From positions 124,001 through 188,000 of the forward strand of contig NZ_QVNU01000005.1 of assembly GCF_003545715.1 (NCBI RefSeq): DNA of 64,000 bases, in the 5' to 3' direction. The position numbers and the translations under genes are program-made. The notes beneath the pieces were generated by a model that was given only the letters and a program-made list of their open reading frames with translations, had not been told where the DNA came from and did no database searches. This document shows positions 29,993 to 33,453 of the stretch, piece after piece (within the stretch, counting starts at the first letter, position 1; every line of letters starts with the position of its first letter). Source of the DNA: Taibaiella koreensis (GTDB taxonomy: Bacteria; Bacteroidota; Bacteroidia; Chitinophagales; Chitinophagaceae).

Positions 29993-31683
29993 ATGGAAGC
30001 CTTATTCAGGGAAATACGCCGGCTGATCGCCGCAAAAGATTTTGAAGCCCTTGCCCGGCTGGATATAAAGGCCCCCGCTCGGTTCAACTGGGTACAGGAA
30101 GTCTTTGAGCAGATCCACGTGAACGATACACCCGATGCCACAGCACTGCTGTGGACCGACGGCAGGCAAACGCACCGCTATTCTTTCCGCGACATCAGCG
30201 AGCGCAGTAACCAATTGCTGAATTTTCTAAGGAACAAAGGCGTCGGGCAACACGATGTCTTGCTAACCCAGATGGGGCTTCAGCAAAGCAATTGGCTGGC
30301 CATACTGGCGGCCATCAAGGGTGGTCTGCGTATGGTACCTGCAGCCACAATACTGGGCGTACAGGACATTGTATACCGTTTCGGCAAGCTGATGCCGCGG
30401 ATCGTGATCGCCGATGCCGGCAATGCTCCCAAGATCGATGAGGCCGAAGCCTTGTCGGGACGGCAGGTAGCAGTTAAGCTAATAGCCGAAGGCACACGTC
30501 CCGGTTGGTATTCGCTGGACGATGTGGCTGCGGAAAGCATGGTAGCAACAGCAGCACCCACACTGGCCGACGATCCCCTGTTCCTGTTCTTCACCTCGGG
30601 TACTACCGGTATGCCCAAAGTGGTGACGCACACACACCTCAGCTATCCCTTCGGCCACCTTACCACTGCTGCCTGGATAGGGCTACGGCAGGAAGACATC
30701 CACTACAATATTTCACAGCCGGGTTGGGCCAAGTTTGCCTGGAGCAGCGTGTTTGCTCCCTGGAGCATCGGCGCAACGATATTTGCGTACCACCAGGAAG
30801 GCCGCTTTAATGCCAAGGATACGCTTGCCATGATCGAAGCGCATGGCATTACCACCTTTTGCGCACCGCCCACGGTATTGCGCATGCTGATATTGGAAGA
30901 CCTCAAGGGTTACCGTTTCCGGTTCAGGGAATGTGTCGCTGCCGGGGAGCCATTGAATCCCGAAGTGATCGAAATATGGAAGGCACGGGCATGCTGATCC
31001 GCGACGGCTTCGGCCAGACAGAAAGCACCTGCATGGTCGCCAATCTTCCGGATAGTCATGTTAAGTTCGGCTCCATGGGCAAGCCTGCTTTCCTGTACGA
31101 CGTAGTGGTCGCCGACGACGAAGGCAATATACTGCCCGATGGGGAAGAAGGCAATATATGCGTGCGTACCGGTACCGGCAAACCCAATGGTATTTTCAAA
31201 GAATATTTCGATGATGCGGAAAAGGGAAAAGAAGTATTCCGGCACGGCCTGTACTACACCGGCGACAAGGCCTACCGCGATGAAGAGGGTTATATCTGGT
31301 TTGTAGGCCGCGACGATGATGTGATCAAATCGTCCGATTATCGCATCGGGCCTTTTGAGGTGGAAAGCATACTGCTGGAGCATGAGGCAGTGCAGGAATC
31401 GGCCGTGGTGGGTAGTCCGCACGCGGTAAAAGGATACGAGGTAAAAGCATTTGTTGTGCTCAACGCCGGCTACAATGCCGGTGAAGACCTGGCCAAAGAC
31501 CTGTTTGCGTATGCCAAAGATAGCCTGGCCCCTTATAAAATGCCGCGGCTGCTGGAGTTTGTAGCGGAGTTGCCCAAGACTATCAGCGGTAAGATCCGGC
31601 GCGTAGAGCTAAGGGCCCGCGAGGCCGAAGCTAAAGCAAAGGGATCGCAGCCGGAGCAGGAGTACAACTATAGGAAAATCTAA
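29993..31683 (+). pseudogene. AMP-dependent acyl-CoA synthetase (MACS-like), interrupted by a frameshift
   Basis: Two overlapping frames together make one full ~563-aa acyl-CoA synthetase. The first (ATG 29993 to TGA 30997) holds the P-loop FFTSGTTGMPKVVTHTH and stops after EVIEIWKA; the second continues as TGMLIRDGFGQTES... from 30985 to 31683, with the YYTGDKAYRDEEGYIWFVGR motif and the C-terminal KTISGKIRR lysine. Adding one base after 30984 restores an unbroken WKATGMLIRDGFGQTES. All motifs on both sides are intact, so this is either a sequencing error or a very recent mutation. It is the last gene of the paaK operon and would activate a medium-chain or aryl acid. Confidence 0.85.
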
Positions 31684-31685
31684 GC

Positions 31686-31703
31686 GGCAATTTGCCTTTT
31701 TTT
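31686..31703 (+). terminator. Weak terminator after the acyl-CoA synthetase
   Basis: A short GGCAA/TTGCC hairpin and a run of seven T directly after the stop at 31683. It may end the paaK operon before the RAYT gene. Confidence 0.5.
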
Positions 31704-31766
31704 AACAATGGTATTTATGAAAATAAGGCGTGCATTAAAAATGCATGTCCTATTTTTGATCTACCT

Positions 31767-32402
31767 ATGGCAGAATTATATCATAATCGCTACAGGATAC
31801 CGTCGTCGCGACTGGCCACGTGGGATTATACCAGCGAAGGCATGTATTTTGTCACAATTTGTACCCATCGCCGGGCACATTATTTTGGTGAAATCGTAGA
31901 GACGCCATGCATGGCGTCTGATCAGGTTGTTGTTCCGGAGACGCCAGGCATGGCGTCTGATCAGGTCGTTGTTCCGGAGACGCCAGGCATGGCGTCTCTA
32001 CGACCGACGGCAATGGGCCTAATTGCCGAACAGGAATGGTACCGTACCATGGCATTACGCACCGATATGCGCCTGCAATCCGGCGAATTTGTGGTGATGC
32101 CCAATCATATCCATGGCATCCTGATCATCGGCGCCAATCCTTTTAATCAAGGCATTCCCGCCAATCAAAACAGGTTTGGCCCTCAATCACATAATTTGGC
32201 CTCCGTTATCAGAGGTTATAAATCAGCAGTAACGATTTACGCCAGGCAGAATGGTATCTGCTTCAACTGGCAAAGCCGTTTTCACGACCACATTATCAGG
32301 TCTTACGAAGAATATGAACGGATCGCCCGCTACATCAGGAACAACCCGCAAAAATGGGCTTCCGATAAATGGTACACACCGCACGAAGCTAATGCCGGTT
32401 AA
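31767..32402 (+). CDS. REP-associated tyrosine transposase (RAYT, Y1 family) with internal REP-like repeats
   Basis: 211 aa from the ATG at 31767. This is a Y1-type (IS200-like) transposase, the kind that moves REP palindromes: WDYTSEGMYFVTICTHRR near the N-terminus, the metal-binding MPNHIHGILII, then SRFHDHIIRSYEEYERIARYIRNNPQKW. The catalytic Tyr is probably in the SYEEYERI segment. Between the FGEI strand and the IAEQEW helix the protein holds three 13-residue repeats (ETPCMASDQVVVP and two ETPGMAS copies) encoded by 39-bp units with a 20-bp palindrome. The frame is kept. Such an insertion is not expected in the family. Confidence 0.88.
   Translation: MAELYHNRYRIPSSRLATWDYTSEGMYFVTICTHRRAHYFGEIVETPCMASDQVVVPETPGMASDQVVVPETPGMASLRPTAMGLIAEQEWYRTMALRTDMRLQSGEFVVMPNHIHGILIIGANPFNQGIPANQNRFGPQSHNLASVIRGYKSAVTIYARQNGICFNWQSRFHDHIIRSYEEYERIARYIRNNPQKWASDKWYTPHEANAG
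31894..32003. repeat. Three 39-bp REP-like palindromic units inside the RAYT gene
   Basis: Units start every 39 bp. The first contains a perfect 20-bp palindrome AGACGCCATGCATGGCGTCT (31900-31919); the next two (31939-31958 and 31978-31997) have AGACGCCAGGCATGGCGTCT. Spacers read GATCAGGTTGTTGTTCCG or the same with one change. The array is bounded by TCGTAGAGACGCC (31894-31906) and its inverse GGCGTCTCTACGA (31991-32003), the form expected of a whole REP-type element. Confidence 0.9.
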
Positions 32403-32408
32403 TCCTAA

Positions 32409-32846
32409 TTATTTATGGCTGTTCATAACAACCCTGGCCCACAGGATCACCAAAACGGTCCACAGCAATATACCCAGGCAATAATAGAGCCAAAAGCTAT
32501 GCCAGTTTTTCTTTTGGTTTTTCGCGCGGTAATGGCTGAGCAATAGCCAATGCGGCGCCAGCACGAACAGCAGTCTATCACGAAATCCCGGCCGCAGCGA
32601 GCCGTATTCCGTGCCTATTACCACAGACCATCCCTCAATCCATAACCACGCAGGGAACAAGAAGGGAAGTGTTACCAGCAACAGCCGATAGCGCAGCGGA
32701 AATTTCTGAAGTTCCGGCGCGCGTGTGGTATTGGGTGCTTCTCTTTTCTCCAATTCCTGTATGACTGCATTTCTTACCATTTTGTTCAGACAATTATTGT
32801 GCTTCAGGATCTGTAATTGCTTTGTGGAAAGAAGATCGGTTTTCAT
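32409..32846 (-). CDS. Hypothetical membrane protein
   Basis: 145 aa. The N-terminal ~50 residues are hydrophilic and basic; three hydrophobic stretches follow (LLLVTLPFLFPAWLWIEGW, RLLFVLAPHWLLLSHY, FWLYYCLGILLWTVLVILW). Not recognised. It converges with the RAYT gene, with 6 bp between the stops, and is divergent from the YdeI-like gene. Base composition is like its neighbours. Confidence 0.65.
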   Translation of the reverse strand: MKTDLLSTKQLQILKHNNCLNKMVRNAVIQELEKREAPNTTRAPELQKFPLRYRLLLVTLPFLFPAWLWIEGWSVVIGTEYGSLRPGFRDRLLFVLAPHWLLLSHYRAKNQKKNWHSFWLYYCLGILLWTVLVILWARVVMNSHK

Positions 32847-32943
32847 GAGGATAGGAGAAAGCGTAAAGATACATTGCCTGCTTGTTCTTTTCCAGGAGCA
32901 ATTTTACATCGGGATATTTGCTAGCTTAGCATTTCGAAAAGCA

Positions 32944-33453
32944 ATGACTACTTTTACCACTACCATACACCAGTTTGAAGAGAACGGCGACAAGACCGGC
33001 TGGACCTATATCGCGATACCTGCCGATATCGCACAGGAAGTTTTCCCGGGTAATAAAAAGGCATTTCGTGTCAAGGGGAAGCTGGATCATTTTGCGATCA
33101 GTAGTGTAGCGGTAATGCCTATGGGCGATGGTAGCTTTATCATGGCCATTAACGCGGCTATGCGCAAAGGGATCGGTAAACGCAAAGGCGCCATGCTCAA
33201 AGTAAACCTTGCAAAGGACGATACGCCACAGGAGATTGTGCCGGAACTGCTCGAATGCCTCGCCGACGATCCCGAGGCGCTGGCGCACTTCCGCAGCCTG
33301 GCGCCGTCGCACCAACGCTACTTCAGCAAATGGGTGGATGAAGCCAAGACCGAACCTACCAAGGTCAAACGCCTGACCTTATGCCTTTCGGCGCTTGCGC
33401 GGAAGATGGATTACGGCGCGATGATCCGCGAGCAGCAAGGGAAGAAGGGTTAG
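32944..33453 (+). CDS. DUF1905 / YdeI-OmpD-associated family protein
   Basis: 169 aa from the ATG at 32944; the frame stays open upstream but that part is poor in protein-like features. Two parts: an N-terminal DUF1905-type beta barrel (about 1-90: TGWTYIAIPADIAQEVF, FRVKGKLDHF, SFIMAINAAMRKGIGK) and a C-terminal YdeI-like helical segment (about 105-160: FRSLAPSHQRYFSKWVDEAKT...KRLTLCLSALARK). Cytosolic. YdeI relatives have been linked to bacteriocin protection and envelope stress, but the molecular function is not known. Confidence 0.85.
   Translation: MTTFTTTIHQFEENGDKTGWTYIAIPADIAQEVFPGNKKAFRVKGKLDHFAISSVAVMPMGDGSFIMAINAAMRKGIGKRKGAMLKVNLAKDDTPQEIVPELLECLADDPEALAHFRSLAPSHQRYFSKWVDEAKTEPTKVKRLTLCLSALARKMDYGAMIREQQGKKG

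Follow-up and report, generated by a model that had tools for sequence, protein, structure and literature searches.

The gene and its product

The window (the whole stretch of 64,000 nucleotides of Taibaiella koreensis DNA that was analysed) contains on its forward strand an intact open reading frame of 211 codons with an ATG start (31767-32402), which encodes a REP-associated tyrosine transposase (RAYT, or TnpA_REP) and holds, within its coding sequence and in frame, an array of REP-type palindromes. The features of the locus are listed below with coordinates, strand and, in brackets, the basis on which each was assigned.

31767..32402, + strand: RAYT / TnpA_REP (HUH, Y1) transposase gene, 211 aa (ORF, NCBIfam profile, invariant residues, predicted fold)
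31887..31904, + strand: codons of a predicted β strand, residues 41-46 (GEIVET), the last codons coming from the left REP foot and arm (predicted strand E41-46)
31894..32003, + strand: in-frame REP array (site a), with left foot TCGTAG, three palindromes and right foot CTACGA (sequence, shuffles, ssDNA fold)
31900..31919, unstranded: palindrome 1, AGACGCCATGCATGGCGTCT, perfect, with GTAG directly before it (sequence)
31939..31958, unstranded: palindrome 2, AGACGCCAGGCATGGCGTCT, its first two bases being the end of the GGAG at 31937-31940 (sequence)
31978..31997, unstranded: palindrome 3, core as palindrome 2, followed by CTAC (GTAG on the opposite strand) (sequence)
31989..32006, + strand: codons of the predicted partner strand, residues 75-80 (MASLRP), from the right REP arm and foot (predicted strand E75-80)
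32103..32114, + strand: HUH motif N113-H114-I115-H116 (invariant alignment columns, translation)
32331..32348, + strand: tyrosine motif YIRNNP with Y189 (invariant alignment columns)

The gene had been named a RAYT in a sequence-only reading of this DNA, and motifs, profile match and predicted fold all agree with that name. The protein matches the NCBIfam model REP_Tyr_transpos (NF047646) with an E value of 1.4e-15 and 57.4 bits, a score under the curated cut-off of 80 bits, which is the threshold of one general model and no feature of the RAYT family. Pfam gave no match to the protein at 0.001, and the Pfam Y1_Tnp profile was rejected as a gene marker, as it picks up one other locus but not the window gene. 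Across 40 aligned sequences H114, H116, W168, Q169 and Y189 are invariant; Y189 is taken here, from knowledge of the family, to be the catalytic tyrosine. The AlphaFold model (pLDDT 84.5) has as its best PDB match 4er8 (E 2.7e-06, TM 0.42/0.53), a RAYT in complex with a REP hairpin and presumably the one from E. coli, with IS200/IS605 transposases next, and a search of the PDB sequences with the alignment profile returned 4er8 at E 4.6e-08, its sole other match being an unrelated Atg17 entry (0.0031). The HUH motif, the single catalytic tyrosine and the TnpA fold that together mark a RAYT are thus all found in the window protein.

The in-frame REP array

The array sits between FGEI and IAEQEW, upstream of the HUH motif, and is bounded, as had been proposed, by a sequence and its inverse: its outer ends are TCGTAGAGACGCC at 31894-31906 and the reverse complement GGCGTCTCTACGA at 31991-32003, with outer feet GTAG (31896-31899) and CTAC (31998-32001). 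The palindromes have the form AGACGCC(ATGCAT or AGGCAT)GGCGTCT and follow one another at a spacing of exactly 39 bp. The earlier description of three exact 39-bp units holds for this period and for units 1 and 2, which are full 39-bp repeats with two differences, and fails for unit 3, which shares only a 21-nt core, identical to that of unit 2, then runs into the right-hand foot and differs from unit 2 at 15 positions over 39 nt.

By a strict rule (arm of at least 9) the window gene has two palindrome centres. When its codons were shuffled synonymously, any arm of at least 9 appeared in 21 of 1000 shuffles and two centres in 0 of 1000. As single-stranded DNA the 117-nt block folds with −42.9 kcal/mol (z = −10.2), a stability reached by 0 of 200 shuffles. 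These results show a genuine array that keeps the frame and is palindromic as DNA, and the sequence together with the shuffles bears out the proposal of three REP-type palindromes of about 20 bp lying inside an open reading frame that has been kept.

The two predicted strands, residues 41-46 and 75-80, bracket residues 47-74, for which neither helix nor strand is predicted, so that parts of the predicted strands are encoded by the REP arms at either end of the array. The strands may form a hairpin whose loop is the array.

Copies elsewhere in the genome and a second RAYT

In the 5.94-Mb genome, the window REP type GACGCC...GGCGTC was not found outside the window gene at up to two mismatches in the 20-mer. 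The proposed genome-wide count thus returned no other copy, which is, to the letter, one of the two outcomes that the sequence-only reading had named as speaking against it. A half-site of the palindrome occurs once elsewhere (C18:421632), and the inner 18-mer has near matches at C16:46675 (two mismatches), at two places on C10 and at one on C18 (three mismatches), a search in which the control found 1. No REPs flank the gene in a scan of ~1.4 kb upstream and 1.5 kb downstream; the same scan found flanking REPs, chance palindromes among them, in 42 of 105 relatives. With neither a flanking REP nor another copy found, the window genome does not show a cognate REP population.

Counting the exact palindrome over the genome was rejected as proof of a REP family, the full own-genome copies being found only inside the gene, and relatives were used instead for that reason. 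In G001, the genome of the nearest relative, whose gene is identical to that at locus L060 described below, one copy outside the gene has the uneven core of window units 2 and 3. In two family members, G265 and G285, AGACGCCATGCATGGCGTCT with up to two mismatches, a tolerance that lets in sister types, was found at 30 and 25 places (control 0). On account of these copies, absence from its own genome does not refute the REP reading. The nine other exact GAGACG...CGTCTC places of G001 are of TTGC type or one-base variants thereof, and two of three other genus genomes drawn (G101 and G174) lacked both a RAYT match at 1e-20 and any exact GAGACG...CGTCTC site.

The window genome has five RAYT-like matches, the window gene included. 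A second RAYT (L186, C10:524481-524930) has no in-gene palindrome and carries GTAGAGACGTTGCATGCAACGTCTCTAC on both flanks; this flanking REP is the dispersed GAGACGTTGCATGCAACGTCTC REP. Exact GAGACG...CGTCTC occurs at 26 places in the genome, 18 of which are the inner 22 bases of the L186 REP.

In-gene REPs among relatives

The comparison covers 105 distinct genes, eight loci with the same gene as another having been skipped and four identical genes dropped (109 to 105); the near-identical pair L072 and L082 was kept, as were six genes with stops inside the match (L062, L063, L075, L105, L121 and L129). The set is biased towards the window gene because the window sequence was used to find it. 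Two scans were applied: the strict rule for perfect palindromes (arm of at least 9, loop of at most 8), and a tolerant scan of 28-mers with REP feet, whose thresholds were set post hoc and which misses odd-length palindromes and, because of a misplaced anchor, L027.

A perfect in-gene palindrome is present in 62 of the 105 genes, where 3.95 are expected from synonymous shuffles. The palindromes concentrate at two sites: site a, after FG and before HUH (11 genes), and site b, between the HUH and WQ motifs (54 genes); five genes received a C-terminal label, one of them (L027) wrongly, through the anchor position. With the tolerant scan, 70/105 genes have an in-gene element, made up of 14 of 29 genes from a search of 394 genomes of the family and 56 of 76 from a contig search (best 80 loci). 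By either scan the element is found in 75/105 genes, 17 at site a and 65 at site b, and is absent from 30. Most of the relatives examined therefore carry a like element in one of two loops, and the window array is not a one-off. Among RAYTs of other subclasses an in-gene palindrome was found in 0 of 20 scored (30 were fetched, 10 of them without an ORF under the motif filter), a control in which some of the scored ORFs, such as the ones with 448 and 977 codons, are perhaps not RAYTs proper.

Reading frame and inheritance

Of the 92 elements of the tolerant scan none lies in the frame in which GTAG is read as a TAG stop. At site a one frame is shared by 17 of 19 elements, and at site b two open frames are used by 31 and 42 elements. 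The tree, built from the insert-free core, is weak, with 52 of its 102 inner branches open. On it the site-b frame switches five times over 61 genes, against 16-25 times in 200 shuffles of the labels, a large contrast despite the weakness of the tree. With the two scans combined, elements appear or disappear no fewer than 12 times at site a and 18 times at site b (13 and 20 on the tolerant scan alone). Since the frame at site b follows clades, we read the elements as old, inherited together with their frame and often lost, rather than as products of endless fresh insertion.

Stem pairing and match to flanking REPs

Change within the elements was followed in 36 greedy nearest pairs with the same site and frame and a core identity of at least 0.50, sisterhood being assumed and a gene with elements at both sites being counted once per site. 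Over all 14 positions, 71 compared pairs broke versus 44 that changed with pairing kept, counts which by themselves give no support for conservation. A split into feet, stem and centre, made after these counts had been seen, gave a different picture for the stem: at positions 5-12 (eight pairs) there were 40 two-sided changes that kept the pair, 18 one-sided changes and two two-sided changes that broke it. The expectation for two-sided changes with independent sides is 3.0, a figure that ignores the choice of the elements for at least 10 of 14 pairs, by which kept stems are favoured. In the feet of the same 36 pairs, one-sided changes number 31 versus three two-sided kept changes.

Because those elements had been picked for pairing, the stem test was repeated with elements chosen by the left foot only. 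In this set of 58 distinct elements, pairing is kept in 199 of the 232 cells of positions 9-12 and is complete over positions 5-12 in 35 elements, with misregistered odd-length elements counted as unpaired. The two arms mostly change together. The counts for stem and feet point to decay of the feet and, for the stem, to either selection or overwriting by other copies.

The in-gene sequence also resembles the REPs that flank the same locus. In 27 genes the in-gene element and an element on its own flank agree at 12.74 of the 16 central bases, versus 8.37 for elements of other loci, and agreement as high was reached in 0 of 5000 permutations, in a test that ignores relatedness. Several flanking elements in this set of 27 resemble palindromes arisen by chance, the own score being 3 in L023, L110, L112 and L117 and 6 in L035.

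Nearest relatives and probable growth of the array

The closest relative found is the gene of Taibaiella helva at locus L060, with 60% amino acid identity. At site a it has one degenerate unit with the window arm, GTAGAGACGCCATGC-TGGCGTCTG (the gap was placed by the analyst), so homologues do not all have unrelated DNA in this segment, the other outcome that had been named as adverse. The L060 gene occupies the same intergenic place as the window gene, with flanks ~80% identical and with its orientation reversed relative to them. The reversal at the shared site (L060/L013 against window 31664-32944) reflects either an inversion in place or two arrivals. An ORF of 145 codons adjoins the RAYT in the window (32409-32846, − strand) and has no DNA match in the L060 locus, where only ~150 bases lie between the gene and the next matching block.

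Comparison of relatives for the number of units, which had been suggested as a check, gives the single degenerate unit of L060 and two-palindrome forms in L017 and L036, each with one foot at each outer end. Inverted REP pairs are known as REPINs or BIMEs, and the window, like L017 and L036, resembles them in having GTAG and CTAC at the outer ends of a palindrome pair; the window pair differs in lying inside a coding sequence and in having a third tandem palindrome.

That the element inserted into its own enzyme gene, as the sequence-only reading had it, stands as an older event only, given the degenerate unit already present at the same site in L060. For its multiplication there, a tandem duplication of 39 bp in frame is the best reading, since the genome search at up to two mismatches turned up this REP type nowhere else. 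With its nearest relative carrying one degenerate unit at the locus, the array probably grew in the window lineage by such duplication. The simplest course would be an inverted REP pair at site a, followed by the 39-bp in-frame duplication.

Relation to described systems

In the passages of Quentin et al. 2018 (PMC6006769) drawn on here, REPs in frame inside the tnpA_REP gene are a unique feature of TnpA_REP subclass 2.4, a subclass with the motifs NH[IFV]H, WQ and YIxNNP, with double-foot REPs (GT[AG]G ... C[TC]AC) and with hosts in Cyanobacteria, Bacteroidetes and other phyla; its in-gene insertions generally lie between HuH and Y, and Bertels's group 4 stands beside it in the table of that paper. 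The window protein has all three motifs, as NHIH, WQ and YIRNNP, and its gene has REPs in frame. The double foot is found on the window array as a whole and not on each unit, and relatives with both feet on one palindrome exist in the tolerant scan. The array lies before the HUH motif, as do the site-a elements of 17/105 relatives (site b, 65), rather than in the usual place; insertion between HuH and Y is a tendency and not a defining feature of the subclass. The gene further departs from subclass 2.4 in lacking flanking REPs (~1.4 kb upstream and 1.5 kb downstream), in its three tandem palindromes and in the absence of any other copy found in the genome. Judged by its motifs and REP features, the window gene would be classed as a TnpA_REP of the kind called subclass 2.4.

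Short palindromes in frame within proteins are likewise described, in the passages of Di Nocera et al. 2013 (PMC3733652) drawn on here, for intragenic GTAG/CGTC REPs, which lie inside a variety of other genes, and for Rickettsia palindromic elements. The REPs of those passages sit in other genes, whereas the window palindromes occupy the gene of the putative mobilising enzyme itself, at a position that is used repeatedly in relatives. The phenomenon is thus already in print, and the window is a well-marked example of it, set apart by the less common location of its array, by three palindromes in tandem and by the failure to find a further copy in its genome. In the passages drawn on here we found no mention of a clade-wise frame, of stem covariation or of matching to the flanks; what is added here is that in-gene REPs are frequent among relatives, inherited and matched to neighbouring copies.

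Among sampled dispersed REP copies, one of 35 is in frame within a real gene: at L191 (G285:C35, ~82915) a REP is read as RRDAMHGVST inside an apparent histidine kinase, judged from its translation. Long ORFs read through REPs by chance, and for this reason only L191 was counted as intragenic; a rate based on ORF length alone was rejected as too crude. The stretches with REP copies at L170, L207 and L208 look like upstream leaders.

Proposed origin and maintenance

The reading that we consider likely is that a RAYT of subclass-2.4 type carries REP hairpins of its own type in its own frame, through ancestral gain, a 39-bp duplication and upkeep by REP recognition. The proposed first step is the arrival, in an ancestral RAYT, of a single REP or of two REPs in inverted orientation at the β-hairpin turn after FGEI, a turn that would tolerate extra residues; the REP arms would now encode parts of both strands, and the middle the loop. 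In-frame duplication of 39 bp in the lineage of the window gene would have added a third palindrome to an inverted pair with outer GTAG/CTAC feet, and slippage between palindromes in the same frame would change the length in multiples of three. The enzyme presumably acts on REP hairpins in single-stranded DNA, its own in-gene hairpin included, the putative substrate of the window enzyme being GTAGAGACGCC...GGCGTCTCTAC. Recognition and processing of such single-stranded hairpins by the enzyme would keep and renew the palindrome: a wrong-type copy in the gene would be replaced or selected against, out-of-frame changes would be lost, and the enzyme gene would travel with its own substrate even where, as in the window genome, no other copy was found.

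The same data may also be read as recurrent fresh insertion, in which REPs repeatedly enter two permissive loops through a preference for targets in cis, each in-gene copy being young and neutral. We regard this account as possible, though rather doubtful. The resemblance between in-gene and flanking REPs of one locus agrees with it, as do the changes of presence (at least 18 at site b and at least 12 at site a), the use of both open frames at site b by 31 and 42 elements and, in L191, the 1/35 dispersed REPs that landed in frame elsewhere; however, new insertions at random should leave both open frames intermingled unless the frame is set by the target, whereas the frame at site b follows clades, with five changes against 16-25 on shuffled labels, and 17/19 site-a elements share one. 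An improbable alternative is regulation in cis, by which the transposase would bind the hairpin in its own gene or mRNA and limit its own synthesis. A kept stem that resembles the REPs of its own locus, and an array that is very stable as a single-stranded fold, would suit such a role, but neither scan finds an in-gene element in 30/105 relatives, and the other RAYT examined in the window genome has its REPs only outside the gene.

Selection on the encoded loop, with the palindrome as a by-product, appears very unlikely. The arms do encode parts of two predicted strands, and the frame at site a is nearly constant; yet synonymous shuffles, which leave the protein as it is, remove nearly all palindromes (3.95 expected versus 62), and the peptides vary among relatives (ETPCMAS, VETQCIASL, VETDNNPSL, VETHNCASL) while pairing is kept. 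A chance tandem repeat of a palindromic run of codons with no connection to REPs would account for the exact palindrome not being found elsewhere in the window genome, but we give this explanation practically no weight, as relatives share the site, the feet and the REP core, and two centres arose in 0/1000 shuffles.

The maintained in-gene REP of the favoured reading might, more speculatively, be no passenger but a cis element of the RAYT gene, a resident master copy, its stem being rewritten as the cognate type changes, so that the gene alone could found or refound a REP family. The window array would then be the last remnant of one family, beside a second RAYT with dispersed REPs. We offer this extension tentatively and consider it less likely than not. 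To our knowledge, how REPs are made and spread is still an open question. An enzyme gene with its own type of substrate in frame, whose stems change on both sides and track the REPs nearby, makes the co-evolution of transposase and REP readable from single genes, and related genes with none, one or several in-gene units form natural test sets. For readers of genomes there is a caution here, as short in-frame palindromes are to be expected in such genes and are not errors.

Among the recurring in-frame arrays that of L022 is striking, with four site-b elements at spacings of 99, 114 and 99 bp. The open frame at this locus (G246:C113:3021-4061) has 350 codons and carries in-frame arrays of NGIDANGRDAMHCVST-like repeats at both sites.
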